64,000 bases of DNA, from positions 1,194,790 through 1,258,789 of the forward strand of contig NZ_NESD01000001.1 in NCBI RefSeq assembly GCF_003063545.1, read 5' to 3'. This DNA comes from Limnohabitans sp. Jir61. GTDB taxonomy: Bacteria > Pseudomonadota > Gammaproteobacteria > Burkholderiales > Burkholderiaceae_C. Positions 1,329-34,689 of this stretch are shown piece after piece. The notes beneath the pieces were generated by a model that saw only the letters and a list, made by a program, of their open reading frames with translations, made no database searches and was not told the origin of the DNA. A program made the position numbers and the translations under genes. Within the stretch, counting starts at the first letter, position 1. Each line of letters opens with the position of its first letter.

Positions 1329-2177
1329 TTAAACAAAGCGCGCACTGAACTGCGCGCTGCACCAAATAATGGCGGGGAACGCACACATCCACGCCCAGAA
1401 GAATCGGTTCAAGCCAAAGAACCAAAACACCAAGAAGTGAAACAGCGCCGCCACGGCGCAAAACACGGCGGCGAGTCGCGGGTCTAGCAAGCTGAAGGGA
1501 AACAAAATTTCCCACACGATGAAGCCCCACGAGCCCAGCATGGCTAACCATTTATTGCGCAGCGGATGCGTGGCAGACAGTGGCCCATAAATGGCCCCAT
1601 TCAAAAAGATGGTCATGGCCGAGCCATTGCGCCATTCAGGGCGTAGCAGCTTCACCGCCCCCGACATGAAGTACGAGGTGATGGCTTGAATGGCGATATA
1701 CCAAAAGCCTGCTTGCCAGCCCAGCTCTGCATTGCCAAACGCACCCACCACTTGCGAGATGAACAAGCCTGTGAGCACCACGAGCGTTAAGAAATCGCTG
1801 CCACCGTTGAACGCACCGCGCCAACGGATGAGGATGAGCAAGTTGCCCACAAACAAAAAGCCAATTAACGGCAACGATGCACCATGCACTGCCAACGCCG
1901 CAGCCGCACAGAGGCGCAACACCAAATGCAACTGATGCATGTGAGGCTTGAACAGCACGTCCAGCACAGCACGGATAGGCGCATTGGGAATATCAGCCCG
2001 CTGCAACTGCCAAGACCAAAACGCATCGTTGGCGGTGTACTTGCCCATGCGCAAGTATTCGAGCGTTTGAATGGTGAGGCTCCAAGCAAACACAAGCTCG
2101 GTGGCGCGAATCGCCATGAGCATGGGCGCTTCCACCCCCGCTTCTATCCAAGCTTGAATGAATGCGGCACTCAACAT
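1329..2177 (-). CDS. HTTM-like multi-pass membrane protein
   Basis: 282 residues with several hydrophobic helices spread along the chain (for example ATELVFAWSLTIQTLEYL, LIGFLFVGNLLILIRW, FLTLVVLTGLFISQVVG, AAVFCAVAALFHFLVFWFFG). The pattern resembles the HTTM (horizontally transferred transmembrane, vitamin-K-carboxylase-like) superfamily. That family call is made from overall appearance and not from a decisive motif; catalytic Lys residues of true carboxylases were not identified. The ATG start at 2177 overlaps the stop of the upstream gene by 7 bp, so the two are almost certainly co-transcribed and translationally coupled. An 8-bp GC-rich inverted repeat lies at the very 3' end. Inner-membrane location is expected; the substrate is unknown. 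Confidence 0.6.
   Translation of the reverse strand: MLSAAFIQAWIEAGVEAPMLMAIRATELVFAWSLTIQTLEYLRMGKYTANDAFWSWQLQRADIPNAPIRAVLDVLFKPHMHQLHLVLRLCAAAALAVHGASLPLIGFLFVGNLLILIRWRGAFNGGSDFLTLVVLTGLFISQVVGAFGNAELGWQAGFWYIAIQAITSYFMSGAVKLLRPEWRNGSAMTIFLNGAIYGPLSATHPLRNKWLAMLGSWGFIVWEILFPFSLLDPRLAAVFCAVAALFHFLVFWFFGLNRFFWAWMCAFPAIIWCSAQFSARFV
1337..1358 (-). terminator. Putative terminator at the 3' end of the HTTM-like gene
   Basis: AGCGCGCA (1337-1344) and TGCGCGCT (1351-1358) form a perfect 8-bp stem with a 6-nt loop. Read on the minus strand it is followed by TTTGTTT and lies within the last codons before the stop at 1329-1331. On the plus strand, after the ABC-F gene, there is no T-run, so it is best read as a minus-strand terminator. 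Confidence 0.45.
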
Positions 2178-2689
2178 GCGGCAGCCTCCACAGGCGAGGT
2201 CATCATCACTTGCGTGTCTACGTTCTCGGTGCGGCCATCCAAGACCATGCGCAGCTCAAACTGGCGGTGGGTGAAGTTCACATCGCGGGCGCGCAGCACT
2301 TGGTCGCACAGGCGCTGCATCATCTTGTAGCTCACCAGTCCGCGTGGATCGACGCCTTCTGGCAAATCGTGCAGGTCGGCCCAAAAGTGGTCCACCATGT
2401 TTTGTTGGCCTAGACCAATGTTGGTGTCGGGGTTGTGAACGAGATGACTCAAACGTCGCAGACGCCGTGGGTAAATCAAAACCCAATCTGACCATTGCAT
2501 CTCGCCCGAAGCCAGCTGCACGGCCGAGCGCGCATAGAGGTGAGGCACATAGCCCACCGCATGAAAGAACTTCCAATTCGGGAAAAACGCGCGCAGCAAG
2601 AACAGCCAAGGGCCCCTAATGATCGGGGTCTTGATGACAAGCGTGGCCGCCAGCACCAAAAAATACAAAACGAACAGGGCTTCTGTCAT
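2171..2689 (-). CDS. Conserved hypothetical protein with N-terminal membrane anchor, partner of the HTTM-like protein
   Basis: 172 residues. The N-terminus (LFVLYFLVLAATLVI) is one hydrophobic helix, then a basic patch and a soluble domain rich in Arg, His and Trp (YPRRLRRLSHLVHNPDTNIG). I do not recognise the family. It is the first gene of a two-gene operon: its TGA (2171-2173) overlaps the HTTM-like start. The coupling suggests the two proteins form one membrane system, but no catalytic motif is visible. The start at 2689 is the only good ATG preceding the hydrophobic segment. Confidence 0.65.
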   Translation of the reverse strand: MTEALFVLYFLVLAATLVIKTPIIRGPWLFLLRAFFPNWKFFHAVGYVPHLYARSAVQLASGEMQWSDWVLIYPRRLRRLSHLVHNPDTNIGLGQQNMVDHFWADLHDLPEGVDPRGLVSYKMMQRLCDQVLRARDVNFTHRQFELRMVLDGRTENVDTQVMMTSPVEAAAC

Positions 2690-2779
2690 AGCTATCTATT
2701 TTGCATGAAGGCGGTGACTCAAGTTTTACCAAGTTCGTGCCGATTCAAAGACTGTGATGTTCTTTTCTAGTCAACTGCC

Positions 2780-4540
2780 ATGAGCTTGCTTAAGCCTGCC
2801 AGCGGTTCTCCATTCCCGTACACACCACCAAGCCCAATTAACCCTGCGCTGGTGGGGCCTTACTGCGTCCAAAACATCAAGAGTTTCACGTCGCTTCAAA
2901 TTCAAAAAATTCCGGTCAGAGAATTAGTCAATTTCACCACTGATCAAATACAGGCCTTCACAACAACGCAAATTCCTTGGTTCTCGACGGATCAAATCAA
3001 AGCACTCACGGCGGAAAATTTCAACGCCATGACTAGCAAACAGATCAAAGCCATCAGCTTTGCGCAATGGAATCGAATTTCTCCCCAAGTCTTTGCTGGC
3101 ATCAGCAACCAGCAAATCTCTCTCATCTCGACCACAACCATTGGATCTATCAGCACAGAGCATGTCAGCGTATTAACCAAGCCACAAATTACGGCACTCA
3201 CGACCGATGAGATGGCTCATTTATTCGCGGATCAACTAAACGCATTTTCATCGTCGCAAGTCAAATCATTGACTGCCAAGCAGGTTGAGAAAATTAGTAC
3301 GGAACAAATCGGTAGTTTGTCCACTGAATTTGTTTCAGCACTTTCAGCATTACAAGTGAGAGCGCTCAGTACCGTGGCACTATCCGCCATGTCAACTGAG
3401 CAAATTCAGGCATTGGATGCAGAAGATGTGGCAAATCTCACCGCCTATCAAATCAAATCATTGAGCATTGAAACTGTCCAGTCATTTACAACCGGACAAA
3501 TCCAAGGATTAAACAAAGCCGACATCACTGAATTCAGCACGACACAAATTGCGAATTTAACGACGGATCAAATAGCCGCTATTCGGACCGACAGTCTGGC
3601 TGGCTTAACCAAGGCGCACTTAGACGCCTTGACGACTGATCAAATCGCCGCTTTGACAACAACGCAAATTGCAACCTTATCAAGTAACCAAATAAGAAAT
3701 TTAAGCACCGATGACGTTGTAGCTTTAGGAACATCGGGCATCAAGGCCTTGTCAAACGGTCAAATCACAGCACTCACTGCCAGCCAAATCGACCATATGA
3801 CGGATGAGCAAATTGCAACGATCAGCAGCAGCCAGTTCAATCGATTAGCAAACCATCAAATTCGCGAATTAACGGGTCATGTGATCGCAGCGCTGAGTAA
3901 CGATGTAGTTAAAAATTTAACCCAATCCCAAAGTCGTTTGTTCTCGCAAGAGCAAATAGCCTCGTTGACAACAACACAAGTTCAATCGCTGAGTCAACAA
4001 ACCATCAATCAACTCAGTCGTGCCCAGGTTTCAGCATTCACAACCGATCAACTCAATGCGTTTTCTGGGGCGCAGCTCCGTCAATTGAATCTCAACGCCG
4101 TGAAAGGTTTGACCGCAGAGCAGCTGGATTCAATGTCGAACACGCAGTTTTCTGCGCTCAATACGTCACAAATTAATGCATTTGGCGTGTCTCAAGTTGC
4201 GCATCTGGGTTCTGAGTTTGGACAATCACTCACCGCTGGCACTATCAACACACTGAATGCCAATATTTTGAATGCGATGGGATCTGATGCGATTCAGGCG
4301 ATCAACCAGACCGTGATCTCTGCAATGTCTGTAAAACAAGTCGCTTTGATCAATGCGACATTTGTTTCACGCATGCATGATGAACAATTTCAAACGCTGT
4401 CACCTGAACAAATCAGGTCAATATCGGTTCGCGCGTTAAGTGGACTGAGTTCTAGCCAATATGCCACGCTCACAACAACACAACAAGCAGCGTTCACCCC
4501 TAGCCAAATTCGAACCTTAAAAGCCAATGGTTTGATTTGA
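2780..4540 (+). CDS. Free-standing octapeptide-repeat protein (68 perfect octads)
   Basis: 586 residues: a Pro-rich head (1-35), 68 consecutive 8-residue repeats (36-579) and a 7-residue tail. The consensus is [LIMF]-[ST]-x-x-Q-[IVLF]-x-x, with Leu/Ile-type residues at positions 1 and 6 and Ser/Thr at position 2. There is not a single insertion or deletion over 544 residues, while codons vary freely, which indicates selection on the protein. An in-frame TAG lies 12 nt before the ATG, so no upstream signal peptide can be added, and none is visible at the N-terminus. No clear Shine-Dalgarno sequence is present. The gene is convergent with the giant exoprotein gene (16-bp gap). Related octads form part of the C-terminus of TpsA2. 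Function unknown. S/T-x-x-Q resembles a helix N-cap box, so a solenoid of very short helices is plausible (inference). Confidence 0.85.
   Translation: MSLLKPASGSPFPYTPPSPINPALVGPYCVQNIKSFTSLQIQKIPVRELVNFTTDQIQAFTTTQIPWFSTDQIKALTAENFNAMTSKQIKAISFAQWNRISPQVFAGISNQQISLISTTTIGSISTEHVSVLTKPQITALTTDEMAHLFADQLNAFSSSQVKSLTAKQVEKISTEQIGSLSTEFVSALSALQVRALSTVALSAMSTEQIQALDAEDVANLTAYQIKSLSIETVQSFTTGQIQGLNKADITEFSTTQIANLTTDQIAAIRTDSLAGLTKAHLDALTTDQIAALTTTQIATLSSNQIRNLSTDDVVALGTSGIKALSNGQITALTASQIDHMTDEQIATISSSQFNRLANHQIRELTGHVIAALSNDVVKNLTQSQSRLFSQEQIASLTTTQVQSLSQQTINQLSRAQVSAFTTDQLNAFSGAQLRQLNLNAVKGLTAEQLDSMSNTQFSALNTSQINAFGVSQVAHLGSEFGQSLTAGTINTLNANILNAMGSDAIQAINQTVISAMSVKQVALINATFVSRMHDEQFQTLSPEQIRSISVRALSGLSSSQYATLTTTQQAAFTPSQIRTLKANGLI
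2885..4516 (+). repeat. 68 tandem octapeptide-coding units (24 bp each)
   Basis: 1,632 bp = 68 x 24 bp with unbroken phase. Typical units are LTTDQIAA, LTTTQIAT and MTDEQIAT. The DNA copies are diverged (different codons for the same residues), so this is an old expansion and not a recent slippage product. Confidence 0.9.
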
Positions 4541-4555
4541 GGTTGCCCGATCTAG

Positions 4556-7500
4556 TTATTTACCGAAATTCTCCTGAATCACCATCAAGGTTTCCACGCC
4601 GCCAATACCCACCTTCAGTTGTAATGGGAAGGCGCCGGGCGGAATAGTCGTAGCCACAAACGTTTTGGTACCCGGCTCATAGCGTAACCACTCTGGCAGT
4701 GGCTTGCCATCGACTTGTGTCACTTTCACTTCTGTATTAGCAACAGCAGGCACATGCGACTCAATTGAGAACGAGAAGCTACGACCGGGTGTTGCCACTT
4801 CAGATGAGACAGCGACTGAGATCACGCCAGTTTGGTTACCAGAAGCGGGTCGTGCGACAGAAATTGAAATGGAGCCATCGCCATTTGTTGCAGCTGCTGC
4901 AGACGCGCTGACTGCGACAGAACCTAACAATGGCGCGCTCACTTTGGCGGGTTGGACCACAGATGTTTCGACACGTACCACCAAGGTACCAGCATTTACC
5001 GCATTCATCAACTGCGGATGGTTGATCATCACCACGCCACCTTTGTAGAGGATAGAGCCAGACCACTGATTTTTCGGATTGAACAAATCAATCTTGGCAT
5101 TGCCTGCATCAAAGTTTGAATTACCGCCTACTTTGATGGGGCCACTTTGAATGATGTCAAAGCCACCACTGTTCACATTCACTTTGGCGCCAAAAATGGA
5201 TGTGCCTAAGTCAATCTTGCCGTGGCTATTGAGTACGGTGTCACCCACAGTCTTTACTTCACCCAAGGTCAATGGACCTGCGCTAGTCAAACTCAAGGTA
5301 CCTGAGGTGTCCGCGGATACTGTTCCCACAAAGCTGTTAGCAGCATCGGTCAGCGTGACGTTGCCCGCGCTTGTGATGATGTTGCTTGTCCCACCCACGG
5401 TAAGCGGACCGACTTGCGTCACATCACCCGATGCCACGTTGGCCAACAAATTCCCCGTCACGGTGCTGGCGCCCAGTGTCAATGCTGTTGCCGTGTTCAG
5501 CGTGGCATTGATGGCATCCACCACCACGGGCTGCGCGAAGGTATTGGCTTGTGCCAAGATCACATCACCTTGCGCGGCAGTAAAGGTGCTTACACCTGCC
5601 ACATTCAATGGACCTGTTTGCGTGATGTTGCCTGTAGCCGCTGTCACCGCCAACGTGCCCGTGACAGCACTGTTGCCCAGTACCAACCCGTTGCTACCCA
5701 CCAATTCGACGCTGTTGGCTAGCAAACTGACTGCGCCACCAAACTGGTTGGGCACATTGGGCAAAGTCACGTTGCCTGTGCCTGCATTCAGCGTGCTGGT
5801 ACCTGCAACTCGCAAAGCAGAATTAGGTGATGTGCTTTGCACGATGTTACCACCTTGCGTTTGCACCAACAGACTACCGCCCACATTGGCAGAGCCCAAG
5901 TCCACCAGTTGACCTTGTGTTGCAGCAGTCAGATTGCCCGTTACCGTGGCCTGTCCAAATGACACCGTGCCTGCTGTACTACTCATATCCAAACTACCCG
6001 TGATATTGGCACCACCCAAGTTCATGTTGCCCAAGCTTTGCAAGGTTAAGTCACCGCCAGTGATAAAAGCCGTACCCAAGTCAATCGAACCACTCGGCGC
6101 GCGCAAGGTCATGGGGCCGCTGTTGGTCACACTGGCCAATTGCAAATTACCGCTGGTCGCCACCGAGGTCGACACACCTTGTAAGCCCAAAGTGCCGCCA
6201 AACGAGTTCAATACGTTATCCAGTGTGATGGTGCCTGAGCCTGCTGTGACCGCTGTGTTGCCCGTCACCACAAACTGTCCAGTTTGTGTCACGTTACCGT
6301 TGGCACTTTGCACAATCAGATTACCCGATACAGTGGTTGCGCCCATCGTCACTGCGCCGCCGCGGCTGTTAACCATCACATTACCAGAGGCTGTGATGCT
6401 ACTGCTGTTCAACGCTCCTTGCGTTTGCAAACTCACCGTACCCGCACTTTGCAAAGGTGCCAACGTCAAAGAGGTGTTGGTGATGACAGACACATTAGCC
6501 CAAGAACCTCCGTTGATTTGGTTGAGCGTCAGCACGCCTGAGAATGTATTGTTTGCACTCGTCAGCGCAGCCACTTGTAAGGCACCCGTGTCAGCAGTGA
6601 AGGTGGTTGTACCGCCCACATTCAAATTGCTGCCAGCCAATTGCGACACGCCACCAGCCTTCGTTGTGATGTGCAAATTGCCACCGACATCAATCGGTGC
6701 CAACACCTGAGTTGAGTTGCTCTGCAAATCTAGGTTGTAAGAAGCCGCTGCATCTGAAATATGGGTGAAGTGAAGGGTGTTAAGCGACGAAGTCAAGCTC
6801 GTATCGGCACCCAACGTGATGGCGGCGGCATAGGTTTGCCCCTGCGTGGTAGACACAACGCCGCCTGAATGCGTCGATGCGCCAGTCACAGAAAGGCTTC
6901 GCACGTTGACCGCACCCGCTAAGTCGGTCATGCCACTGGTATCCACCGTCAAGTCAAAACCACCATCAATAGCGCGGGCAAAGTGAATGGCTGCACCCAT
7001 GCTGCTTGTCAGTGTCGTGTTAGCCCCTAAAGTCATGGCATCGTCGTAGCGTTGCGCACCCGTGGTGGTTACTGCGTTGCCGTTCATCAACACATGGCCA
7101 CCCGCGTTGGTATGCAAACTACTCAAGCCACTCACAATGCCATCAAATCGTGTGTTGCCGATGGTGTTGATGATCAAGTCGTAAGCACCACCCAGGGTGC
7201 TAGCAAACACAATATCACCTGCATTTGTGCTGTCGAGTGTGGTGTGCGCACCCAAGCTCACGGCACCACTGTAGCTCTGGCCTAATGTGGTGCTGATGCT
7301 GCCACCATTGAGGTTGGTGTTACCCACCAAATGCAAATAGCCAGCGCCACTGACCGAATCGTCAAAGGTCACAGTCGTTGCGGTCAATGTGGTGTTACCC
7401 AACATATTGACCTTGTCGTGGTAAGTCTGTCCGCGCGTGGCCTGAACAGTCGTGCCATTGATTTCTAATTTGCCGCCCCCGCTGACTGTGATGTCGCGCA

Positions 7501-10500
7501 ACGTACTACCCACTGCTACACCCACAGCGCCATTCCATCGGGTTACTCCACTACTGACAATCGTCAAGTCCCGGGTACCGTTCAAGGTAGAACCAAACGT
7601 TAAATCAACACCTGAAAAAATAGCATCGCCTATCCAACTCACAGCACCGCTGTAGTTTTGTGAATGCCCAAATGTGTTGGTAGCTGAAGACGCTCGGATG
7701 AAGGGGGCCAGAACGGAAAAATCTGCATCGCCCATCACCTCGCCGTCAAAGGTAACTTGAGATGCAGTGAGGATGGTAGAAACATCTAAATTCACGCGAC
7801 CGCCATATGTTTGGGAGTGCGAATGTGTATTCACAACTCCTCCCATGAGGAACGACTCAGCCTGCAGATTTAAATCATGGTCGCCATCCACGGCACCCAT
7901 GAAATAAATCTGAGAACCCGTCAGCGTGGCATTTTGTCCAAACGCAAAATTATTGACATAAGTTTGTCTATGCGTCCCTGTGTTTAGGGTTGCACCGCCA
8001 AATGTCATGTCACCTATCACGTAGAGTTCATGATCTCCACTGACATTTCCAGCGATGGTCACACTTGATCCCGTCAGTGCAGTGTCCGCTCCCAAAGTCA
8101 ATGTACCGTTGTAACTCTGGGCATGATTCACAGTATTCACATTGCTGGCATTAATGACCGTATTACCTTCAATGTGAAGTGAGTAATCTCCGCCAAGTCC
8201 ATTACCGATCGTCACTGTAGTGGCTGTCAGCGTTGTGTTGTCACCCAATGTAATCATGCCACTGTAGTTTTGCGATTTGCCTGAAGTCGTGACCATACGT
8301 CCATTGATAAAGGCATCACCAACAATGTTTAAATCATGCGGACCACTCACCACATCTGCAAAAGTCACTTGAGACGCCGTCAATGTCGTGTCCGCGCCTA
8401 AGGTCACAGTACCGCTGTAGTTTTGAATGGCGCCTGTTGTCGTGATTTGGCTTGCATTGATGATGGCATTGCCCACCACGCTCAAACCACTACTGCTTGT
8501 GACATTTCCACCCAAGCTCACCGTTGAACCGGTCAATGTTGTGTCTTGACCCAACGTGACTGCGCCGCTATAGCTTTGTGCTTTGCCTGTGGTCGTCACA
8601 CTGCCGCCATTGATTGCGGTGTTACCCAACACGCTCAGGCTATGTGCGCCACTCACCAGATCTGCAAACGTCACTTGAGACGCCGTCAATGTCGTGTCCG
8701 CGCCTAAGGTCACAGTACCGCTGTAGTTTTGATTGGCGCCTGTTGTCGTGACTTGGCTTGCATTGATGATGGCATTGCCCACCACGCTCAAACCACTACT
8801 GCTTGTGACATTTCCACCCAAGCTCACCGTTGAACCGGTCAGTGTGGTGGCCTGGCCCAACGCCACCGTACCGCTGTAGGTTTGTGCAAACCCTGTGGTC
8901 GTCACACTGCCGCCGTTGATTGCGGTGTTACCCAACACGCTCAGGCTATGTGCGCCACTCACCACATCTGCAAAAGTCACTTGAGACGCCGTCAATGTCG
9001 TGTCTGCACCCAAGGTCAAAACTTCACCATAAATCTGTGCACCTGTCGTGATCACAGTTGCACCGTTGATCTCCACCGTGCCATTGGCATTGGTTTGCAG
9101 GCTTGTCACTTGTACTGGTGCAGAGAAGCGTGTGATGCCACCGCTGTTCACCGTCACATCGCTGATGAATCCATTGCTGCCACCTAACGCACCTCCGAAT
9201 ATCACATTGCCTGCACCTGAGTCCACCGTCAGTGTGCGTGGGCTTGTCGCGCCCTGTACGGTTGAACCAAAACTCACACCTACACCTGTCAATGTCGTGT
9301 TCTGACCCAACGTGACTGCGCCGCTATAGCTTTGTGCTTTGCCTGTGGTCGTCACACTGCCGCCATTGATTGCGGTATTACCCAACACACTCAGGCTATA
9401 TGGGCCACTCACCACATCTGCAAACGTCACTTGAGATGCCGTCAATGTCGTGTCTGCACCCAAGGTCAAAACTTCCCCATAAATCTGTGTACCTGTCGTG
9501 ATCACAGTTGCACCGTTGATCTCCACCGTGCCATTGGCATTGGTTTGCAGGCTTGTCACTTGTACTGGTGCAGAGAAGCGTGTGATGCCACCGCTGTTCA
9601 CCGTCACATCGCTGATGAATCCATTGCTGCCACCTAACGCACCTCCGAATATCACATTGCCTTCACCTGAGTCCACCGTCAGTGTGCGTGGGCTTGTCGT
9701 GCCCTGTACGGTTGAACCAAAACTCACACCTACACCTGTCAATGTCGTGTCTTGACCCAAGGTGACTGCGCCGCTATAGCTTTGTGCTTTGCCTGTGGTC
9801 GTCACACTGCCGCCATTGATTGCGGTGTTACCCAACACGCTCAGGCTATGTGCGCCACTCACCACATCTGCAAACGTCACTTGGGATGCCGTCAATGTCG
9901 TGTCTGCGCCTAAGGTCACAGTGCCGCTGTAGTTTTGATTGGCGCCTGTTGTCGTGACTTGGCTTGCATTGATGATGGCATTGCCCACCACGCTCAAACC
10001 ACTACTGCTTGTGACATTTCCACTTAAGGTCACCGTTGAACCGGTCAATGTCGTGTCTTGACCCAACGTGACTGCACCGCTATAGCTTTGTGCAAACCCT
10101 GGGGTCGTCACACTGCCGCCATTGATTGCACTGTTACCTGTCACGCTGAAAGCATAATTTCCAGAGACAGGTGCATTCAATGTCAACAATGAAGCGCTCA
10201 CCGAGCTTGTACCGCTCAAGCCAATCGGGTGTCCTGTATTGCCTAACGTGATAGATCCACTGCTTACGAGGTTGCCTGATAAATCAATACCAATAGGCGC
10301 CATGGCTGTCATGCCACCTGTAAACGCGAAGTTGTCGCCGCCATTGCCCAAGGTCAGCACACCTGTGTTGTTGAAAATACTCGAAGCCGTAAATGCATTA
10401 CTGGCGCCGGTCATGCTCACGCTGTAGGGTTTTGCATATGTGATCAAAGACGCTGTTTGCAAATTACCAACAAATGAATAACTTGCGGCATTGGTCAATG

Positions 10501-13500
10501 TCATTACATTCACGCCAGTCATTGACGCCATCACATTCACAAGGCCACCTGTACCTGCATTAAGCGTGACTGAATAACCTGAAGCAGCGACTTCTTTTTC
10601 AAATGTGATGTTGGCACCAGCCTGCAAGGCTCCGTTGTTCGTCGTGTCAAATGTGGTGTCGTTCGTCAACTGCACTGCACCGTGGAAAACGATGGAATGA
10701 TCACTGCTGGTGCGCACCAAACCTCCGCCTAATGTGGTCGTGCCAACGCTGTTCACTTCAAAATGCAAGGGGGCTGTGACATCACCAATCGCGCCGGCAA
10801 ACACAGCATTACCTGAATCATTCACTACCAAACGATAAGGGCCGTTGATAGAACTACCAAAATTGATATTCTGCCCCGTGACTGCTGCATCCACTAACAA
10901 AATAATAGGTGCGTTATAGGTTTGTGTGCCGCTGGTGCTCACGCTAATCAACGGCAACGCAGCAGCTTTGAGGCTTAAATCATGCGCACGCAAAACCGAC
11001 ATTTGACCTGCAAAGGTATTACCCGTGTTATTCAACACAATGTCTGCATCTGCTTCGTCCGTTTGTGCAGATAGGCTTGTGGTGCTGCTGGCATTCATTG
11101 ATGTGCCAGCAGCCTGGGTGATCGCGCCGCCTGTGCTGGTGATGCTCAATGCCCCTGTGCTGCTGAAATTACCCAACACCACGCCCGCATTGCTGCTGCC
11201 AATATTGCTAGAGCCTGCCACACTCAAGCTACCCGCACTGCCTTGGGTAAAACCTGCAGTGGTACTGAAGTTACCGCCCACAGTGGTGGCGCCACCTGTT
11301 TGTGTGAAGGTACCCAAATTCACATTTCCAGTGGTTCGCAAGGTGCCATCGCTTTGAATCAGGGTGGCACCTGCCGCACTAAGGCTGGTGAGTTGCACCA
11401 TACCAAGTTCGGGCGTCACACTGGGTACGCTGGTGTAGTTGGTAGCGATGTTGTTGAAATTGACGGTCGTACCTGCGGGGATCACAACCGCAGCCACGTT
11501 TGACAAATCGGGCACTGCGTTGCCAGACCAGTTGATCGGATTGAGCCAATCACCCGAAGTACCGCCTACCCATGTGACCGATGCCAAACGGTTCACCGTC
11601 GCAGAAGTACTACCCATGGCCGCCACGGTGTAGTTGCTTGCGTCAATGCGTCCAACTGCAGGGTCGCTCAAACTCACACCCGTCACGCTGATCGGCTTAG
11701 CGATACCCACGTTCTTGTTGTTGAAATTGGCAGTCCAATTGATGTCCAACTGATCACCTGACACACGATCATCACTCGTCGTGACCGCAGCAACCGTTGT
11801 GCCGTTGTAGTCACGACTCACGCCTGTGTAGGACACAGTCAATGTGCGCGGTGTGATGCTGGCCACACCTGTGGCCTGCGTTGGCAAGATGTAATTGCTA
11901 AGCGTGGTGCCACTATTTTCTACATAGTCAGTGACTGCCAAATTGGCCAAAGCACTGCTGGCTTGCATCACGTTGCGGCTGTTATAGGTACCAGCAGCTT
12001 GTCTGATGCTCGTGCCTTCACTCACACCACCTGTGCTGATGAAACCAGTGAATACATAGTTGCTGTTGTTCAACACCGCATTCGTGTCTCCGTCATACAC
12101 CTTGGTGATGCTGCCAACCAAACCGACACTCAAAGATTTGGGGATCACTTTGGCTGTGGTTGTACCAGTTGCGAGCACGGTGTAGTTGGCTGCATCAATG
12201 CTGCTGACACCCGATGGATCTGTCAGGCTCACGCTTGTCACGTTCACAGTTTTAGTGGTCACGTTGCTACCGTCATAACGAGCAATACCAGCTGTGTATG
12301 CCACGTCTGAATTCACAAACGCCGCAGTGCGATTGATGGTGAACACATCACCACTCACTCGGTTGTCAGTGGTAGTGACCGTGGCTACAGTGCTACCGTC
12401 GTAAATGCGATCGACACCTGTGTAGCTCACACTCAAAGCGCGTGGTGTGATGTTGGCTGTTGTATTGCCTGTAGCCACCACGCTGTAGTTGTTGGCATCG
12501 GTATTGGTCAAGTACACACCACTCACGCTAACGGCTTTACCGTTACCTACGTTCTTGTCTGCAAACGCTGCAGTTGCGTTGATCGTTAACACGTCATTGG
12601 TCACGCGATCATCCGAAGTGTTCACCGTAGCCACTGTGCCACCGTCGTATATGCGGTTGATGCCGGTGTAATACACATTCAGAACCCGTGGTGTGATGTT
12701 GGCAGTTGTTGTGCCTGTCGCTGCAACCGTGTAGTTGGTCGCATCGATGGTATTGACACCTGCTGGATTGCTGAGGCTCACACCCGTGACACTGATGGTT
12801 TTGGTGTTGGCCGCATCTTTATCGGCAAAACTGCTCGTGCGAATGATGTCAAACACATCACCCGTCACACGATCATCGCTGGCAACGACCGTCGCCATCC
12901 TGCCACCGTCGTACACGCGGTTGTTGCCTGTGTATGTCACATTCAATAAGCGCGGCGTGATGGTTGCGGTGGTCGTGTCAGCACTTGGCACGCTGTAGTT
13001 GATGGCATCTGCGCCTGAGAGACTCACGCCTGTCACATTGACGGTCTTGGTCATGACATTGCCACTGCCGTCAAATGCCACGTTTTTATCGGTGAATGCC
13101 GTTGTTCGATTGATGTTAATGGTGTCGCCTACAACACGTGTATCGGTGGTGGTGACGGTTGTTGATGTGTTGCCGTCGTACACCTTGTTGGTACCGAAAT
13201 ACCTGATGGTCAAGGCTTGAGGCGTTACCTCACCATTGGTACCACTACCCGTGCTGCCATTGATCAAGTAGTAGTTGCCGATGTCTGCACCGTCTAAACG
13301 AAGATTCGTTAGGTTGTAGGGTTTGTTAGCGCTGCCCGTGACGTTTTTATCAACATAGCGGCCATCACCTAACACGTCAACCAAATCAGTTGCATACCCA
13401 GTGACTGGAGTAACTAGGCCTACTGGAGAAAGTTGCAAACTGCTCATCACAGTGTTGCCGTCATAAACCTTAGACAAGCCTGCGGCGTTAACTGTCAAAC

Positions 13501-16500
13501 CTTTGGCGTTGACTTGATAGGCACCCACCACATTGATGTGGTTATCAAAGTCATCTGTGCTTCGGCTCACCATCGTGGCACCTAACAGGTAACTACCCAC
13601 TGTCAAATGATGTGCAGAACTCAAATTGCCATTCACTGCACCTAAATTAAATAAACCTGTCGTAGCGCCATTGGCATCTACCACCGTGACCTGTGAGCCG
13701 CTCACACTCACAAAGCCCTGCCCTGTCAAATCAGTAATCGCTAAAGACTGGCCATTCACAGCAGCCTGTGTCATGAACTTGGCGCTGCTCACCACATAAG
13801 TTGGCGTGTCACCATAGGTGGTGGTCACGTTATTTACACGCACCAGCAATTGGCCCACTGGCACGATGGTGTAGTTGCCATTCACAGGTGTGATGGTGTA
13901 GTTATTGGCAGTTACCGTAGAGGGCACCAATGAACCTGCGTAGCTACCAGAAGGGTCAGCAGCGTCTAAACCAGTCAACGCAGTGCGGTCGCGCGAAACA
14001 CTTGGCACAGCCGACAAACCTGCAGTAGCCGCAGTTTGCCCACCGACAAACCCGCTGTAGCGCACACCTGCATAACCAGGCGTGTCAGACTCTGAATAAA
14101 ATTTGGCATCGTCATTGGCAGTGATGGTCAGCAGTGCTGGTGTGATGATGCCACTGCCATTGGTCCACACTAGGCGGTAGTTGCCTGCGCGTGAACCACT
14201 CAAGGCCACTGTGCCCTGTTGCACCAAACGTGTATTGCCAGTTGCTGGCACGTTAGCGCTGTCAAACACAGCAACACCGCTGATGGATAAGCCACCAACA
14301 CGCGCTATGTCGGTAGCCAATACTGCTGCGTTTGCGCTACTCAAACTGCCGTAACCCACATTACCTGTGGGCATGGCAGTGGTCGCGTCATACACCTTCG
14401 ACACGCCAGTGGTGTTACCACTGAGAGCCACATCCAAAGGCGCGATGTTGGCAGTCGCGCTAGTTTGGTTGGTGATGGTGTAGTTGCGTACATCATTACC
14501 CGTGTAGCTGCTACTCAGCGTTACTGTTTTGCCATTAGACACATTTTCGTCGCTGAACAAACCCGTTGCAGCCACTGTCACATCATCACCAGAGACCAAG
14601 CCTGTTTTATTGGCAGTCAAGACATTCTGCAACGTGGCGCTTCTATCTCCGTCATAAGTTTTAGACAAAGCAGTGATGCCGCTGATGACCAAGTCCTTCG
14701 GCGTGATATTTGCGGCGCTGCTTGTTTGGTCAGTGATGGCGTAGTTATTGAGATCATTACCCGTGTAGGTATTGGTTAGCGTCACGCCTTTGGCAGTGCC
14801 GACGTACTTATCAGCGAAAGTACCAACGCTCGTCAAAACACTCAAACCATCGCCAACCAGCTTGCCTGTGAACGCTACCGTGCTGGTGTTCACAGTAGCA
14901 GCAGTGCTGCCGTCATACACACGGCTATTGGCTTGAAGACCAGAAACTGTCACAGCTTTTTGTGTGATCTTGGCACTTGCTGTTGCTTGGCTGATGATGG
15001 TGTAGTTGGCCACATCAGCCCCACCATAGCTGCTGACCAAGTTGACAGTTTTTAAAGCTGCGGCATTGTTGACCCAATTGACATTTTTAGTATCAAAGGT
15101 ACCCGTGGCAGACAACGTGAGTACATCACCCGACACCATGCCATTGAACCTTGCGTTGTTCAAATCTAGTGTTGCAAGGGTATTACCGTCGTAAACCTTA
15201 TCGTTCGCGGCAATACGATCAACATTGATGCTGAGAGGCGTGATGTTTGCCGTGGTCGAAGGATTTGCAACGATCGCGTAGTTATTAGCAGCACTACCCG
15301 TCAATCCCAGACTAGAAGCCAACACCGTCACGGCTTTGCCATTGGCCACTTGCTTGGTGGCAAACGAGGCACTAGCCACTGCAGGTGTAACCAAGGTCAC
15401 TACATCACCACTCACCACACCTGTTAATGAGCCATAAGTTTGAATCGTGGCTGTTAAACCACCGTCGTAGACCTTGTTGTTAGCAACCAAGCCTGTCAAC
15501 GTCAACGATTTGGGTGTGATGTGTGCTGTAGCACTGGTTTGAGGCGTGATGGCGTAATTCCCCACATCACCGCCCGCATAATTAAATGCACTCAAGGCCA
15601 CCGAGTTGGCTTGCAGCACATTGGCATTGTTGAATGTGCCAGTGGCTGCTGTAACGGCAAACGCATCCCCGGTCACCAAACCTGTGTAAATTGCATTGCC
15701 AAAGTTCAAGCCCGTGTTGGTGGTGTTGCCGTCATACACCTTGTCGTTGGCGGTGATGCCTGAGATCGTCAGTGCTTTTTGTGTGATGGTGCCGTTCGTA
15801 CCGTTGAGCATATTGCCGCTACTGGCTGTGCTCAAAACATAATTGATTGCATCTGTGCCCGTCAGGTTTAAACCTGTCAGTGTGTAGGTCTTGTTTGCAT
15901 TGCCTACAGTTTTGCCGTTGGTGTAGCTGCCAGCACCGTTGAGGCTCACCACATCACCTGCCATCAAACCGGTAGGTGTGTACGAGAAGGCTGCAATATT
16001 GGTAGTGCCGTCATACACACGGTTAATGATGGGCGCTGGTGTGATGGTTTTAGCAGTCACGGTTTGACTACCCAACACGGTGATGGTGTTGTTGAAGTTC
16101 ACAGCGTTCACGGTACTGATGCTGGTGCCACTGATTTGGTAGCTGCCCACATTCAAATACCCCGAGGTGGCGTAAATACCACCCGTCGGTGTAATGGTGA
16201 AAGTGGCCGATGCGTTGCCTGTGTCCGTCACAGTCACGACACCCAAGGCTGACACAGAAGCCCGGCTGATCAAATCCACGATGCCGCCACTACCAGGCAC
16301 GCCTGCCACCACTGGCAACATGTACTTGGCTTCACTCACGGTGTATGTGGGTGCGCTGCCGTACGTACGGTCAGGTGTGCTGACGCGCACCAAAAGCTGA
16401 TTGGCGCCTACGATGGTGTACTTGCCATTCACATAAGTGAAGTCGTAGTTGATAGCAGCAGCCCCGGTCGCACGCATGACGCCTGTATAAACACCCGCCA

Positions 16501-19500
16501 CGTTGTCTGCACCACTGTTGAAGCGTGACACGGTAGGTGCCGTGGTCAAACTTGCCGCTGTGTCATTGCCTGCAAAGCCTGCGTAACTGATGCCGTTATA
16601 GGTGGCTACATCACTTTGGCCTGCAAACTTGGCGTCGTCGTTTGCAGTGATGGTCAACATCTTTTTGGTGATGCTGCCCAACAATCCTGTAGGTGCTGTC
16701 AGCGTGTAGTCGCTGGCAGCGCTGTTGTTGGTGCTGCTGGTAATTACAAATCTGCTGGTCGCTGTGACAGCCTTAGCTGTGCCAACCGTGGCGTTGTTAA
16801 ACACACCTGTTTGTGTGAGTGAGAGCACGTCACCACTGACCACACCATTTAAGCTGCCGCCGCTCAAGGTGGCAGCAGTGCCTGCGTCGTACACCTTGGC
16901 GTCGACCACGGTGTTATCTACAGTCAAAACCTTAGCAGTGATCGTGACCGGTGCATTCGTGGCATTCAATGTGGGCGCAGCATAGTTACTGGCCAACCCA
17001 CCCGTACCATCGGCCAAGGTGATGCTGCTGATGTATTTGCTGAATGTGCCAGCGTGTGCATCATTTGCCGCAGCGCTGCTGATGCTCAGGCCCTCGCCCG
17101 CAACGCCTGTACCAATCGTCACCTGCCCTGCTGTAAGTGCTGCAGTGCCATCGTATGTTTTAGAAGCCGACAGCGTGACTGCCTTAGGTGTGATGTGCGC
17201 TGTAGCTGGTGACTGCACGATGAGTGTGTAGTTGGCAGCTTGTGCACCAGTCAGACTTAAACCCGAGAAGGTCACGCTGTTGGCCTCGGCCACATTCTTG
17301 CTATTGAACGTGCCCACAATGGTAGGTGTGGGTGGGCCTGTGATGCTGATAGCGTCACCTGCATACCACTTGCCATCGTTTGCACTGCCCGCCCCTGCTG
17401 CCACGCTGCCAGTAAATACAGGTGTGCCCACCACTGTGGCGGTGGTGTTGCCGTCGTACACCTTGTCATTCGCGCTCAAGCCTGTCATGGTGATGGACTT
17501 GGGGGTGATGTTGGCGATCAGCCCTGTAGGCTGTGTGAGGCTGTAGTTGCTGGCCTGTGGGCCGCTGAGCGAGTCAGCCGCTGTCACACTGATGCCATTG
17601 GCGACATTCTTGCTGGTGAAGCTACCGGCTTGCACCAAGCTCACCGTGTCACCGTTAATCACACCGCCTACGGCAAACGTGCCACCGCTCAGCGTGGCCA
17701 CCAAGCCACCGTCGTACACCTTGCTGGCCGCGGTGGTGCCTGTGACCGTCAACGCTTTGGGCGTGACCGTTACCGTACCAGGTGTGTTGTAAGTCACGGT
17801 GTAGCCCGTGCGTGCTGTACCTGGTGCGACAGTGATGGCATATGGCCCACCATTCACACTGGCTGTGCTGGCAAAACCGCTAGACGCAGCCGTAGGCAAT
17901 GCGCTGAACACATCAGTCAAGGTAGGCAGTGTGAACACACTGCCACCGCTTGCACTGCTGCTGAGGCTCAACACATCGGCAGAGGTGAGCGTGTTGCCAT
18001 ACACCTTGGTACCACTGGCGGCCACTGCCACCGTGGGCGTGGTGGAAAACACATAGCGCTTACCCGTCACCGCCACAGCGGATGGCGCTTGCGACGCATA
18101 GGTTTGGCCCCACACCGGTGCGTTGGCGCTGTTCAAACCACCGTCGGTCACCAGCGCGGTAGGCGATGTGAGGTACACCAACCAACGGCCACTGGTACCC
18201 GTGGTGGTGAGCGCAGAAGCCCCTGCACTGTTGATGAAGTTGCCACCGGCGGCCAAAGCGATGTAGTCATCGGTTTGTGTATCGGTGATGGTGGCACCTG
18301 AGTTGAGAGTGAGGTTGCCGCCCGTCAGCAGTGTGACGTTGTCCACAAACGTGTTAGTTCCGCCTACGGTGATGGCGCCTGCGTCAGACGCGCCCAACAC
18401 GATGGAACTGAAGCCGTCTTTGAACACCGATGTACCACTGAACAAACTGTTGGCCAAGCTCAAAGTACCTGAGCCTGAGCCCACACCGATCGTGGCACCT
18501 GTGGTGGCGGGCTTGAGCACCAAGCTGCCTGTGCCGTACACACTGGTAGTTCCCAATGCAAACGACAAGCTATCGGCACTCAGGGTAATCGTGCCTGAGG
18601 TGAGCGTACTGCCGTTCTTACCAAGGGTGATGCTGCCGTTGTTATTCAAAATACCCGTGGCTGCGCTTGCACCCATGCCAGTGAGGTTGATGGCCCCAGT
18701 GGTTGAATACACATTCAATCCACCACCATCCAAAGCAATGCCGGCTTTGAGGCGCGATGTGCCTGTGCCAGCTGTACCGATGAGGTTGATGGCCCCGTTG
18801 GCCGTGCTAATGGTATTGGCCGTGCCATTGGTGTAGAAGTTGATACCGACTGAATGCGTGTCGATGTCATAGTTCACGCCCCCTACACCGTTGACAGTGA
18901 TAGCACCGTCACCGTTGGTTGTGAGCGTGGTGCCACCGTTGTAGCCCACCATGTCAACGCCAATCGCATAGAAATTGGGCACGCCGTTGTTCCAGTCTGC
19001 ACCTTGCCAGCCTTTACCTTTGATAGAAATATTGCCGCCCGAGGTGGTGCCTCCAGCATTCAAAGTCACCGCATTCAAAAACACACCTTTGTATTTGGTG
19101 CCATCGACAAGACCTGTGACGTTTGAAGTGGGGGTGCCCACCGCATAGTCAGTGCCGTTGATACCACCACCCATCGTGATGTTGCCGCCGCCACTCAGCA
19201 CGGTCATGCGGTCCAGGTCAATCGAGCCACCCGCGCCTGTGACGTTAGAGTTAAACAAGATGGGGCCACCCGCCGTTTGCACCGTCAGGCCTGTGGCCGT
19301 GGTGTTGATGTTGGTGGTGGCGTACAGCGAAATGCGGCTGTTAAGCCCTGTGCTGCTCAAGCCTGCGCCCAAGTAAATATTGCCTGCATACACATTGATA
19401 GGTCCAGCAATGCTGGTGTTGCTACCAATCGTCACCGTGTCAGTGTGTGCAGTGGTACCCGTGTCTTTACCAATCGTTAAGCCACTCACATCTGAACTCA

Positions 19501-22500
19501 GACTAAAACCCGTGATAGGCCATGACAACGCGCTGCTGAAAGAAGTTGAGCTCGGTTGCAAAGTCACTGTGCCGATGGTGCTCGTGTTAACGCCGGTGCT
19601 TGGCAAAAGCTTGTCGCCTATCAGCGTGATGTTGGCGGTGGACGTCGTCACCAAACTACCAGCGCACGTCGCCACAGCGCACCGGCCTATGGGGGTGACT
19701 GCTAATGTGTAGCCACCTCCTACGTAGGTGGCAAATGAAATACCTGTCGTGCCACCATCAAAAACAATCGGGCCACTAGCGGACAAGAAACCCGTGCCGT
19801 TGGTGCTGATACCCTCAAACGTTCCTCCAATGCCGGTGATGCTTATGCCCCCTGCACCGGTGGCTTGAATGAGGCTTCGACCTTGCGTTGTGGTGTTGTT
19901 ATAAAAACCAAAAAACACGCCTAATCCAGTGCCTTGACCATAGAAGCTAATGGCAGGTGTACTGGCACTGCCGCCACCTGCAACGACAGAAATGGGTGAG
20001 GCCTCGGGTAGGTCAAAACCGTAACCATTAGTCGAAATAGCAGACAAGCTGATAGTGCCAGCACCCGCATTGAGCTGCATGCCTGTGCCCCAGAAAGCAG
20101 TGGAGCCAGTCGATTTGCCGCGCATCAAGATATTGCCGCCACCCGAATAGATAGAGGCTGTGTTCAAGTCGATGCCACGCGTACTAGACGAAATCGCATA
20201 GCCATCGGGTATGCCGTCGTTCGCTACACCACCGTTGGTGCCGTCATCAGGGCCACCTGCCAAAGTGATGTTCCCGCCACCAGTCAACGTGGTGCTGGCA
20301 GCACTGACACCACCACGGCCCGTATTGGTGCGAGAGTCAATCACGGCTGTGGTGCCCACAGAGATGTAGCCATTACCACCCGAAGCGCTATTGGCCCAGT
20401 AGGTGATGTCGCCGCCATTGGTTTTCACTGTCGTGTTGGCAGCTTGACTGATAGAGCCCGAGGCTTTGACCAATATTCCTGAACCTGACCCAGTAGATGT
20501 TATCGACTGGTTGATGGCGATGTCACCACCGTACAGTTTGATCGGGCCTGCTGCCGTGATGGCACTAGCCAAAGTGATGTTGGCCGTGTTGGTGGTTTTG
20601 CCAATCCGAACACTTGAAGAACCACCTGAAATGGCCAAAGATGAAGCATCTAAAGCATCTGTAAATATGGTGCCAACTGATTCAACGACCACATTGCCCG
20701 AAGTAACCGCATTTATTCTGTTGACACCTTCAGCCACAAAGCCAACTTTGTCAGACTGAATCGTGATGTTTGAGGAACTGGCGGTTGACGTGCCAGACAG
20801 CACGGTCGTTCCATCGCTTCCGTAGTAATGCGGCCCAGTGCTGTTGGCTCTCAAGTACATGCCGTAGTAAGAGCCCGTTGTGCCTGCAGGCTGAATGTCT
20901 TTCAAGGTAATAGCACCGCTGGCAGAAAGAATGCTGAGAGCTGAGGTTTGTGCCACGATGCCGCGTGAGTTGCCATTGAGTTTGCCCGCAGTACCGGTCA
21001 GTGTGATCGCGCCGTTTTCTGTCTGAATCAGACCAGTACCGGCTGTGGCCGTATTTAAACCAATGGCCCAGACGTCTGTACCAGCGCCATTGCCGTTGTT
21101 AGAACCATCACTTGTGATCGTGATAGTGCCAGCACCTCTGGTTTTGATGCTCGCGTTATCGAGCTCAACAAGCCTGTCATAGCCACCCGAAGTGCCCGTG
21201 GTGGCATAGCTGGCAGTCATAGACACATTGCCACCTGCAGCATTGAGGGTGGCTTTGTTTGCGGATGTACCCGAGAGATAAATGCCGAAATCTTGTACAG
21301 AGGTCCAAGGGCTGTTGGTCAATGCGTAGGAGATGTTTGCGCCGTTTGTGTTGACGTCAACCCCAGCCGCCTGAACGATTTGCGTGCCTTGCAGCAAGAT
21401 GCCACTACCCGTGGTGGCGCCAGTTGTTACGTCAGCATTAAGCGTAATTTTTCCGCCATAGATCGAAATAGGACCCGCGATGTCGACAGCACGATCAACA
21501 GTGATGGCTGCTGTATTGAGGGTTTTACCAATAGTCAAACCAGTCACACCAGAACTCAATGTGAAGGTAGATGACAAAGTTTGCGCAGTAGCAAAGCTAT
21601 TACTAGCATCCAACGAATAAATGCCCACCGTACCTGTGGTGTTCACGGCTGTGGTGCCATAGCCAATTCGGTCTGCCTTGAGCGTGATCGCGCTGCTGGA
21701 CGTCAGCACATTGCTACCCGCCTTGAAACCCAACGTGACGTTACCGAAATTGATACCCACATTAGCGGTGTCGTTGGTGCCAACAATATTGATGGGACCC
21801 GACTTGGCCAAGATGCTGCCACCCAAGGTTGTCGCCACATCAACACCGGTTGCTGTACCAGATGAGCCCGAAATGCTGATGCCACCACCAGTGCCCGTGG
21901 CTTCCATGCTGCCGGAGAAGTTGATACCCAAGCTGCTGTTGGTGCCATTCACCCCAGAGGCATCACCCACGATGGAGATAGCTTCTGCCGTGGTGTTTGC
22001 TGAGCGCAGGGTAAAACCCGAACCGTAATTAGAAACGGCTTGTGCGTTGATACCTCCTGAGCCCGTAGCTTTACCCGCGATAGAAATTTTTCCTGTCCCA
22101 GAATCGACGATGACGCCACCACCCATGACACCAAACGATATGACAGAGGTTGCCCCCCCCCAGTTTTGACCTCGCAATGTGATGTCACCACCGCCAGAAG
22201 ACAGAGTGGTGCCCGACTGCAAGTTCACACCTGAGATGTAGAGGTCATAAGTGGGCTCTGTCACCGTATCTTTTGTGGCTTCGCCGATGGCATAGCCTGT
22301 GGTGATGTCCGTGCCGCCACCCAGTTTGATGGCACCGCCGCCGGTGGTGATCGACGAGTTTGTCAGCATCTGGGTATAACCCGTGCCGTTGCCATCGCTA
22401 TCAGCCCAAAACGTCACAGCACCACCATTGGTGGTGATGCTCTTGCCACTGGCCAACGAAATATTGCCCCGCCCTTTCAACATCACCGCACTGGCCGTGG

Positions 22501-25500
22501 CGGCAGTGGATGTGTTGAGGTTTTGGTTAACTGTGATGGCCCCGCCATAAATACTGATGGGGCCTGCAATGCCAATGGCTGTGTTGAGTGTGATGTTGGC
22601 TGTGTTGGTGCTGCTTCCCAACGTCAAACTAGTGATGGAGTTGGTGTACGAGTAATTCGCCGTATAAGCACTGCTAAAAGTACTGCTCGCTAATGGCTGC
22701 ACCACCACAGGGCCCATCACGTCAAAACCGCTGGTGCTGGTTGGGGTGTTATTGGTGAAAGTGACGCCCGTGCTGAGGGATTTGGTAAGGCCCGTGTAAC
22801 TGGCTACACCGGTTACCGTGAGGAACCCAGCGCCACTGTTCGTCAAACTGCTACCAGCACCAGAGATGTTGCCAGTGAGGGTGTAAGCGTTGCTGGTGTT
22901 GAGGTTGAGGTTGCTCAAACCCGAGGTGTTAGAGCTGAACGCCAAAGTGCCAGCACCGGAGACCACCTTAAGCGTGGTGCCTGCTGTGCGGGTGGCGTTG
23001 GCAAGTGCATGGCGAATGATGACCACACCATTAGCAGCTTGTGCATTTCCATAACCTGCCGCGCCACCACCATATCCATATTGCCCTGCAGACACTGATG
23101 TGTTGTATGTCGCACCTACGCCATAAGTCACATTCGAGCCAGAAATACTCGAGGAGACGCCTGCCCCACCTAAATAACTGTTGGCATCACCCCCAGCGCC
23201 ACCGCCGCCGCCGCCAACGTTGATGATGCCGCCACTTGCACCACCAGAGCCACCAGTTCTTACCGTACCTGTGCCACCTGACTGGCCGTTGCCTGTATTA
23301 GAGCCCGCACCGCCACCGCCGCCACCTGCGGCATATGCCGCACCGCCCGTACCTACGTTGCCACGGTCAGCGTTGTAGTTACCACCATAACCGCCACCGC
23401 CAACCAAAATTGAACCAAAGCTTGAGTCTGCGCCTTGAACATGCGATCCACCGCCTGCTCCGACTGTCAGGTTGGTGAATGGGCCGCTTATGGAAGTAGT
23501 GCCAGTGGCCACACCGCCGCCGCCGCCATCACCACCCGTATAGTAGCCAGGCCAACTGCCACCCCCACCACCGCCACCGCCAACAACTAAGTAATCAACA
23601 GATGACACACCATACGGCGTGTAGTATGTGTCAGCACCTGTGGTGGTGAATTGATAGAGTAAATAATTTGAGCCACTGATGCCACTCACACTCAAATTGC
23701 TGCCCGTGGCCGACTTACTCTTATTTAAGCTCAAGGTCGCATAGTCAGCCAGTGTGCCGATGTACCCTGAGACAGTACCGCCGGTCAACGTGATGTTGCC
23801 CCCACCAGAGTCAAAAGTCAGCGGAGTTGCGACTGGATCGGAACTTAGGTTGGCCACCTGAACATTGCCTGTCACGCTGATGGCGTTCGCCACTGTCGTC
23901 ACGTTGCCAGCCAAATAAATTGTGCCAGCGCTCAGAGTCACACCACCAGCAGCACTGATGGTTGATCCCACACCTGTGGCGTAGTTCGTGCCCATGACAA
24001 AACTATATGCAGCACCAGCCGTACCGCTGAAAGAACCAGTTGTGGACACATTCCCTGCAACCACTACATCGCCTGAGCCTTGCAAGAGCAAATTACTACC
24101 ACTTCTAGATATCAAATCGCCACCGACATACAAGCTACCGCCATAAACGCTGATGGGGCCGGCAACACTCAATGAATAGGGCAATGCAATATTGGCTGTA
24201 TTACCCGACTTGCCCAAAGTTAGGCCAGTCAAAGTGCTGGGTAAAGCGTAACTAGGATTAAACGCGGTGGTGAAGCTGGTTGTGGGCTCAATTGTCAATG
24301 CGCCCGTGCCACTGATGCTGCTGGTGCTGGGCAAGACATTATTGGTAAAGGTCAAGCTACTGGGGGTTGCTGTAGATGACAAGCTGGTAGCCCCCGCATA
24401 GGTTGCACCACCTGTTAACGCAAGGCTTCCCGACTCCACCTTCAACGCACCAGAACCGCTGAACAAACCTGAATAGCTCAACGCACCGCTGCGATTAAAT
24501 ATGAGCGTGCCATTGTTAATTACTGCAGCCGTTGTAGCGCCTAGCGAACCAGCAGCGCCTGAGCCGACTTGTAAAGTGCCAGCACTGAGCGTGGTGCTAC
24601 CTGCATAAGAGTTATTGGCTGTGAAGGTGAACTTGCCGCCAGCTGAAGGGTTAAGAACAAATGATCCCGTGCCGCCAATGACACCGCTGAATGTGGCGGC
24701 CAATGGATTGAGTGTGAGTGTGTTGGCGCCTGTTGTGGTGAACGTATGCAGGGTGTAGCCGACCGCCAAGCCTGTGCCTGCGGTTTCTGTTCCACCCGTG
24801 GCCGCATCTCCGCCCATGTAGCGAACAACCACAAGGCCCGAGCCACCTGCAGCACCGGGTGTTCGATAGCCAGTGCCATCACCTGCACTTGATGGTAAGT
24901 AACTGGCCGTGCCCGCACCGCCACCGCCACCCGTATTGGCTCTGCCCGCCGCAGCCCAAGCCGTGGGTACATCGTTAGCTATGGTTGTGCCTGCACCGCC
25001 ACCGCCAGCGCCACCAGCGCCACCAGTAAATACGCCTGAGTTGGTGAACGTCACGCCGCCGCCGCCGCCGCCGCCGTAATTGGTTAAAGTGCCTGTGATG
25101 TTAGAAGTTGGGCCAGTGCCACCACTTAAACCTGTGTTGCCTGCAGTGCCAGCGCCACCTGCACCGCCGTTGCTAGTGGACTGATTGCCAGAGCCGCCAG
25201 CCCCACCTGGTCCATTTGGATAGACAGTGCCGCCCGAACCACCCGTGGCGATATCGGTTGTAGAACCGAAATTCAGCCTTGAGTCACCTCCTGCAGTAGC
25301 ACCAGCACCTGCCCATGCCCCAGCAGTGCCACCGCCGCCCACTGTGGCGGTCAGAGCCAAAGCCGCGCCAATGTCGATGCCTGTTTTACTTACGATGGCA
25401 CCACCTCCACCGCCACCACCCCCATCACTGCCACCACCGCCACCGCCGCCGACCACGAGGTAGTCAATCTTGTTGTCATACGCAACAGTCACCGCGCCAT

Positions 25501-34272: not shown

Positions 34273-34689
34273 ATGTTGAACGTCTATTTTGCCGTGGCTG
34301 CCAATCGGGTGATTGTGGACTCGGTGACCAACCAGGTGTCGATCATTGATCTGTTTGAAAACCTTAAATCTACAGATTTTCCGGTTCTTGTGCCGAAGCT
34401 GAGTTTCTTGTTTTACGTGTCGCGTGAAAAACAAGATGCACCAGTTCACGATTTGAACCTCGTTTGCGAACTGGAAGACAAGTCAATTTTTGAGGTGTCC
34501 GTTCAACTCGAGTTTAAGAATGAAAATACGACACGCTTAGTTTTAGGTGTTGATGGTCTTACCCTGCCACACGCGGGCGTTCTGAAAGCCCGATTGATGG
34601 ACAAAACTGTCGAACTTGGCGCATTAGATTTAGCCATCGAGCAGATGCAGTCATTAGCGACCAACACAAAACCAGGACTTGCGCACTAG
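34273..34689 (+). CDS. Small conserved protein of unknown function (DUF6941-like)
   Basis: About 138 residues from the ATG at 34273 (an in-frame ATG at 34201 would overlap the divergent POTRA gene by 41 bp). The N-terminus LNVYFAVAANRVIVDSVTNQVSIIDLFENL, followed by a beta-rich middle, resembles the DUF6941 type of small cytosolic beta-proteins; this is recognition by pattern and not certain. No signal peptide is present. It is divergent from the orphan POTRA gene and convergent with tpsA2: its TAG (34687-34689) and the tpsA2 TAG on the other strand overlap in a CTAG palindrome. Its position between two TPS operons may be accidental. Confidence 0.6.
   Translation: MLNVYFAVAANRVIVDSVTNQVSIIDLFENLKSTDFPVLVPKLSFLFYVSREKQDAPVHDLNLVCELEDKSIFEVSVQLEFKNENTTRLVLGVDGLTLPHAGVLKARLMDKTVELGALDLAIEQMQSLATNTKPGLAH

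Follow-up and report, generated by a model that had tools for sequence, protein, structure and literature searches.

The octad gene and its protein

The DNA analyzed here is a 64,000-nt stretch of the genome of Limnohabitans sp. Jir61 (genome G000 in our set), referred to below as the window. On its forward strand, at positions 2780..4540, lies a gene for a free-standing protein of 586 residues with an ATG start, identified as an ALTTAQ-repeat (PF20080) protein from its open reading frame (ORF), a Pfam match and an orthologue in another genome of the genus (G028, locus L014). The protein begins with a Pro/Ser-rich N-terminal tail of 35 residues (2780..2884), 29 of which are identical in the orthologue. 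Residues 36-579 (2885..4516) consist of 68 phased octads, each predicted to form about one mini-helix, and the C-terminal seven residues (4517..4537) are all identical in the orthologue.

The first-pass annotation of this DNA had described 68 octads in a single phase without an indel, and comparison with 10,000 composition-preserving shuffles bore this out. Position 1 is L, I, M or F in all 68 octads (shuffle maximum 33), position 2 is S or T in 52 (maximum 31), position 5 is Q in 42 (maximum 18) and position 6 is I, V, L or F in 62 (maximum 36); the division of residues 36-579 into octads requires no indel. The DNA copies had also been called diverged, and they are: on average 9.5 of 24 bases are identical, the best pair sharing 21 of 24, and Tandem Repeats Finder detected no array at the DNA level in the gene. 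The in-frame TAG stop codon reported 12 nt upstream of the ATG was found at 2768-2770 (forward strand). Judged by eye only, the N-terminal tail contains no hydrophobic core of a signal peptide and no clear ribosome-binding site precedes the ATG. On the coding strand of the gene, neither promoter-like nor terminator-like sites turned up in a simple scan, and sequence autocorrelation gave no clear support for a period of two octads (16 residues).

Conservation of individual octads

The orthologue search covered many incomplete assemblies, and the number of candidates scored per genome was capped at 16. Some octad match was present in 52 of the 84 genomes of the genus, Jir61 included, while among the matches scored a full-length orthologue was found in just one of the 83 other genomes, G028. 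The two proteins are identical at 455 of 586 residues (78%) and align with no gap. Comparison of the two genes gave dN (nonsynonymous divergence) of 0.136 and dS (synonymous divergence) of 1.61, the latter near saturation, for a dN/dS of about 0.085. Position 5 is the most conserved octad position, identical in 64 of 68 octads. There are 27 octads with a residue other than Q at this position in either orthologue, and in 23 of them the residue is the same in both.

Sixty-four of the 68 octads have as their best match the octad of the same index in the orthologue, and octads within the 586-residue protein share a mean of 1.9 of 8 residues. Since octads match by index and differ internally, there is no sign of turnover of the array after the two lineages split. 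The low dN/dS, the absence of indels and the conservation of octads one by one agree with the earlier claim that selection maintains the phase; as judged from the aligned coding sequences, purifying selection acts on individual octads. The same absence of indels is seen elsewhere: the pair of giant octad proteins of 2061 and 2046 residues also has no internal gap (74% identity), and other giant pairs align with three small gaps at 61% identity (2437/2439 residues) or 12 gaps at 46% (1589/1454 residues).

Membership of the ALTTAQ-repeat family

No named family had been recognized for the protein in the first-pass annotation. That statement proved wrong, since the protein matches Pfam family PF20080 (ALTTAQ repeat) at 219.8 bits (E 2.1e-66), far above the curated cut-off of 26.4 bits, and also matches the sequence of PDB entry 9zem (HeliScrew4) at E 1.1e-14. 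The repeat type is shared with PF20080 over 23 matched stretches, and the 68 in-phase octads of the L[ST]xxQ[IVL]xx type fit the repeat definition of the family. No NCBIfam model reached its own cut-off for the protein. A literature search, with subscription journals and preprints mostly outside its coverage, found no paper on the PF20080 family.

Most of the complete relatives seen in PF20080 are either giants, with about 700-6,300 residues, or exoprotein modules. The 586-residue protein differs from them in being short, free-standing and near neutral in charge, and in having a conserved Pro-rich N-terminal tail. What is new here is a short, strongly conserved, free-standing member of the family, together with the strong association of the family with GT41 (O-GlcNAc-transferase-type) and export genes described below; the family itself was already known by name.

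An octad profile built from 21 nine-octad pieces (8 from the 586-residue protein, 13 from the 2061-residue giant) matched 9zem at E 6.2e-30. HeliScrew4 is a short and very regular protein of 120 residues whose octads are in the same register as those of the 586-residue protein; it was absent from the results of our fold searches, and the likeness rests on sequence. The name suggests a designed protein, but this was not confirmed and no paper on it was found. Leucine-rich-repeat rows in the PDB search fit a period of 24 residues (3x8) and were taken as cross-matches. The Pfam match to CAAP1 (PF15335; 51 bits, cut-off 25) is likely a cross-match. This match to an apoptosis inhibitor family recurs in octad proteins and could mislead their annotation.

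Predicted fold

When thirty octads were folded alone with AlphaFold, the model had a pLDDT (predicted local distance difference test score) of 88, with roughly one short helix to each octad. In the single-sequence prediction the helix mostly spans octad positions 3-7; S/T at position 2 serves as its N-cap and Q falls at N3. No strands are present in either the full-length or the 30-octad model. The earlier idea of a solenoid of mini-helices with capping boxes holds as a prediction, and the models support one mini-helix per octad with S/T-x-x-Q as the putative capping box.

Foldseek placed mesothelin in its first five rows for the 30-octad model (probability 0.99-1.00). This is a likeness of fold only, with a TM-score of 0.41 at most and a root-mean-square deviation of about 10-13, and no mesothelin sequence was matched by the octad profile at E values up to 10. 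Folds of the ARM and PUF types are also among the structural look-alikes of the octad models. The repeat unit of armadillo and HEAT proteins is some 40 residues long and contains two or three helices, and a leucine-rich repeat has a strand in each unit of 20-24 residues; with about one mini-helix per 8 residues and no strands, the models place the protein in neither class. The receptor-binding protein of C. difficile phage CDHS-1 (7qlr), at 8% identity, is not among the 50 Foldseek rows listed for the 30-octad model and may show no more than a similar arrangement.

The genomic site and its neighbours

The octad gene is convergent with a gene for a TpsA-like exoprotein of 9102 residues (4556..31864, reverse strand), a protein of the two-partner secretion (TPS) type, and the two stop codons are 15 bp apart. 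The TpsB of this exoprotein is encoded at 31883-33667. Upstream of the octad gene are two ORFs on the reverse strand, p172 (172 residues, 2171..2689) and p282 (282 residues, 1329..2177), neither of which has a match in Pfam (E 0.001) or NCBIfam (E 0.1).

We compared the regions around p172 in ten congeners. The octad gene is absent from this site in all ten, seven of which have a clean empty site in which the TpsA stop codon is followed by p172 after 29-43 bp. Compared with the empty site, G000 and G028 carry the octad gene as an antisense insertion that separates TpsA from p172. A tree of p172 and p282 does not decide between one gain of the gene and more. In G074 and G071 the neighbourhood around p172 is different, and in G003 (L146 4814-7670) three other ORFs fill the place of the octad gene; the site may acquire genes repeatedly. 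p172 and p282 form a conserved pair directly downstream of TpsA in seven of the ten congeners and are a possible unrecognized TPS accessory pair.

Farther along the window, an ORF of 147 residues (33798-34241, reverse strand) between two TPS pairs matches TpsB2 and looks like a TpsB remnant. It is followed by a TPS exoprotein of 2811 residues (34686-43121, reverse strand) with TPS domain, ESPR, YDG and PF20080 matches, the octad module lying at 35076..35831 on the same strand, and by its TpsB partner (ShlB, POTRA_2; 43125..44873, reverse strand). The 2811-residue protein carries both TPS and ESPR, unlike the 586-residue protein, which has no match to either up to E 10 and does not qualify as a TpsA.

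Distribution and settings of relatives

Of 398 genomes sampled from the whole phylum, 28 contain a PF20080 match, which exceeds the cut-off in 25; of 14 control genomes only that of Caulobacter vibrioides has a match, and it is also one of the two in this set that have GT41. Within the bacterial family, 72 of 299 genomes match a two-row alignment at 1e-20. Thirty of these 72 were examined for the proximity of GT41 and flagellin genes, with related genera not independent of one another. In 17 of the 30, a GT41 gene is found no more than 35 kb from an octad match, compared with 0.92 expected; in the remaining GT41 cases the genes are on different contigs (9), over 400 kb apart (2), or 35.5 and 57 kb apart (2).

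Four settings recur. Octad giants occur with GT41, often together with ABC, HlyD and OEP genes forming a type I secretion cassette; GT41 accompanies the full cassette in seven of nine family loci, these nine having been chosen for the nearness of GT41. G028 has a type I secretion system (T1SS) locus with OEP, ABC and HlyD in a row (L196, G028:C1:27847-32579), and a second, more distant ABC-HlyD pair is present in both G000 and G028. Nine of 57 matching plasmid records were examined, and GT41 lies beside the octad gene in five of the nine (two of them near-copies); on one Rhizobium plasmid the only trace is a truncated GT41-like end about 8 kb away. The five GT41 proteins that were scanned carry tetratricopeptide repeats (TPRs) and sit with octad giants without a Sec signal, as judged by eye. 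Six T1SS-linked octad giants (among L172-L189) end in PLI, most of them after an acidic stretch, a possible export signal. The 586-residue protein ends in the similar -GLI, to which we gave no weight.

All-octad giants with short N-terminal tails and no evident signal peptide lie beside flagellins in nine of the 52 genus loci retrieved, among them both giants on contig C2 of G000 (2061 and 2437 residues), between which that genome has its GT41 genes. A flagellin also adjoins an octad giant in Pseudorhizobium flavum, and flagellar export genes do so in Rhodovastum. An unusually large flagellin-like ORF of 1339 residues adjoins an octad giant in G000 (C2:351688-355707). Near an octad giant in a flagellar cluster of G028 is a matrixin/serralysin-like metalloprotease of 856 residues (L036:8783-11353), with a Pfam match and an NCBIfam score below cut-off; it has matches in G000, G027, G064 and G010. 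In seven of the 52 genus loci, including that of the 2811-residue window protein, octads are modules of two-partner exoproteins with an adjoining TpsB. A further setting is the MetG-ApbC site, seen in G000, G028 and G021 and, a few kilobases off, in G063.

Discussion

We tentatively interpret the 586-residue protein as an orphan, short PF20080 solenoid of a family of Sec-independent surface binding rods. Each octad would form one short helix, mostly over positions 3-7; S/T at position 2 would supply the N-cap and Q at position 5 would complete the capping box, while L/I/M/F at position 1 and I/V/L/F at position 6 would build the solenoid core. PF20080 proteins would form long, stiff, screw-like rods made in the cytoplasm, where GT41 enzymes would add sugars to them, and exported independently of Sec, by type I secretion or the flagellar apparatus; in an alternative placement, octads would ride as modules in two-partner exoproteins. 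The rods would serve in binding at the surface, and in the 586-residue protein the residues outside the core would present a fixed binding surface.

The precedent is HMW1C, a GT41 enzyme that glycosylates the adhesin HMW1 in the cytoplasm before export (PMC3983070); SPINDLY-type GT41 genes are found in the flagellin glycosylation islands of enterobacteria (PMC4875605). According to PMC3983070, HMW1C carries an AAD domain instead of TPRs and forms N-links on a Sec/TPS adhesin, whereas the octad-linked GT41 proteins have TPRs and lie beside giants that appear to lack a Sec signal. Cytoplasmic GT41 action, N-terminal tails without an evident Sec signal and one-step exporters together suggest, by analogy, that octad giants are glycosylated on Ser/Thr and then exported as surface rods. 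More broadly, ALTTAQ proteins may constitute a widespread, unrecognized class of surface rods, helix-screws of up to several thousand residues, with cytoplasmic glycosylation by dedicated TPR-GT41 enzymes and one-step Sec-independent release through a T1SS or flagellar gate, of which the 586-residue protein would be the minimal natural rod; we hold this proposal to be evenly balanced.

Several results weigh against the surface-rod interpretation. No GT41, flagellin, HlyD or OEP match was found in the 64-kb window or beside the G028 orthologue, which leaves the octad gene outside the GT41-linked secreted giants. The T1SS locus seen in G028 is reduced in G000 (L194-L195, C3:101663-102949) to HlyD plus a roughly 65-residue ABC remnant. 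With 32 K/R and 38 D/E, the octad protein is near neutral, unlike the three giants of the Jir61 genome, which are acidic. In the full-length AlphaFold model residues 1-25, 151-196 and 473-521 are below pLDDT 50, and four of the five models average less than 60. Among the relatives, flagellin lies within 35 kb in two of the 30 family genomes, compared with 0.63 expected, so the flagellin-side setting is not a general rule, and flagellin may be the only protein that GT41 serves in flagellar clusters. Neither GT41 nor ABC+HlyD is present at three Shinella plasmid loci. Fifteen chromosomal loci outside the genus have, within the stretch retrieved, GT41 in four, ABC+HlyD in four and either in six, and the 52 genus loci, many on short contigs, have GT41 in ten and ABC+HlyD in five. 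Given the absence of an adjacent GT41 or exporter gene, the reduced T1SS of G000 and the near-neutral charge, we rank a surface rod only slightly above a cytosolic scaffold.

The scaffold would be a rod that is never exported and stays inside the cell with a partner bound along its surface, in the manner of armadillo and PUF solenoids, and we consider it a serious if somewhat less probable explanation. It would account for the lack of GT41, flagellin, HlyD or OEP neighbours, for the charge that sets the protein apart from the acidic giants, and for an N-terminal tail that, by eye, is unlike the flagellin-like starts of the giants. Conservation of octads one by one is what a dedicated binding surface would produce, and ARM and PUF folds are among the structural look-alikes. 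However, the settings of the family in which a neighbour is telling are export settings, no candidate partner adjoins the octad gene, and the gene is accessory, being missing from the site in all ten congeners.

We think it unlikely that the protein is a detached module of a two-partner exoprotein, kept beside the TpsA gene and perhaps still acting with TpsA, even though the octad gene ends 15 bp from the TpsA stop codon and TPS exoproteins of the genus, one of them in the window, carry octad modules. The octad make-up is intermediate between the TPS and all-octad classes, and a comparison of octad order ranked a TPS array, G024a, first (z 4.7), with the TPS array of G014 at z 3.8; both took the same register with the orthologue. 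These z scores, however, are the highest among 91 arrays compared as concatenated runs, each against 30 shuffles, and z 3.8 is also attained by arrays outside the TPS class. The octad gene is moreover antisense to TpsA and has no TPS domain or signal. A decaying, functionless fragment of a giant octad gene, which full-length presence in two of the 84 genus genomes (among the matches scored, G000 included) and the lack of a clear ribosome-binding site by eye would fit, is highly improbable given a dN/dS of about 0.085 and no indel over 586 codons at a dS of about 1.6.

A natural member of 586 residues, its orthologue and a confidently predicted 30-octad core provide a practical handle on the ALTTAQ fold, known otherwise mainly from proteins of unmanageable size. 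The association with GT41 and export genes gives the PF20080 family a testable function. If the proposal is true, the HMW1C model, in which a GT41 enzyme glycosylates an adhesin while it is still in the cytoplasm, would extend to giant proteins that show no Sec signal.
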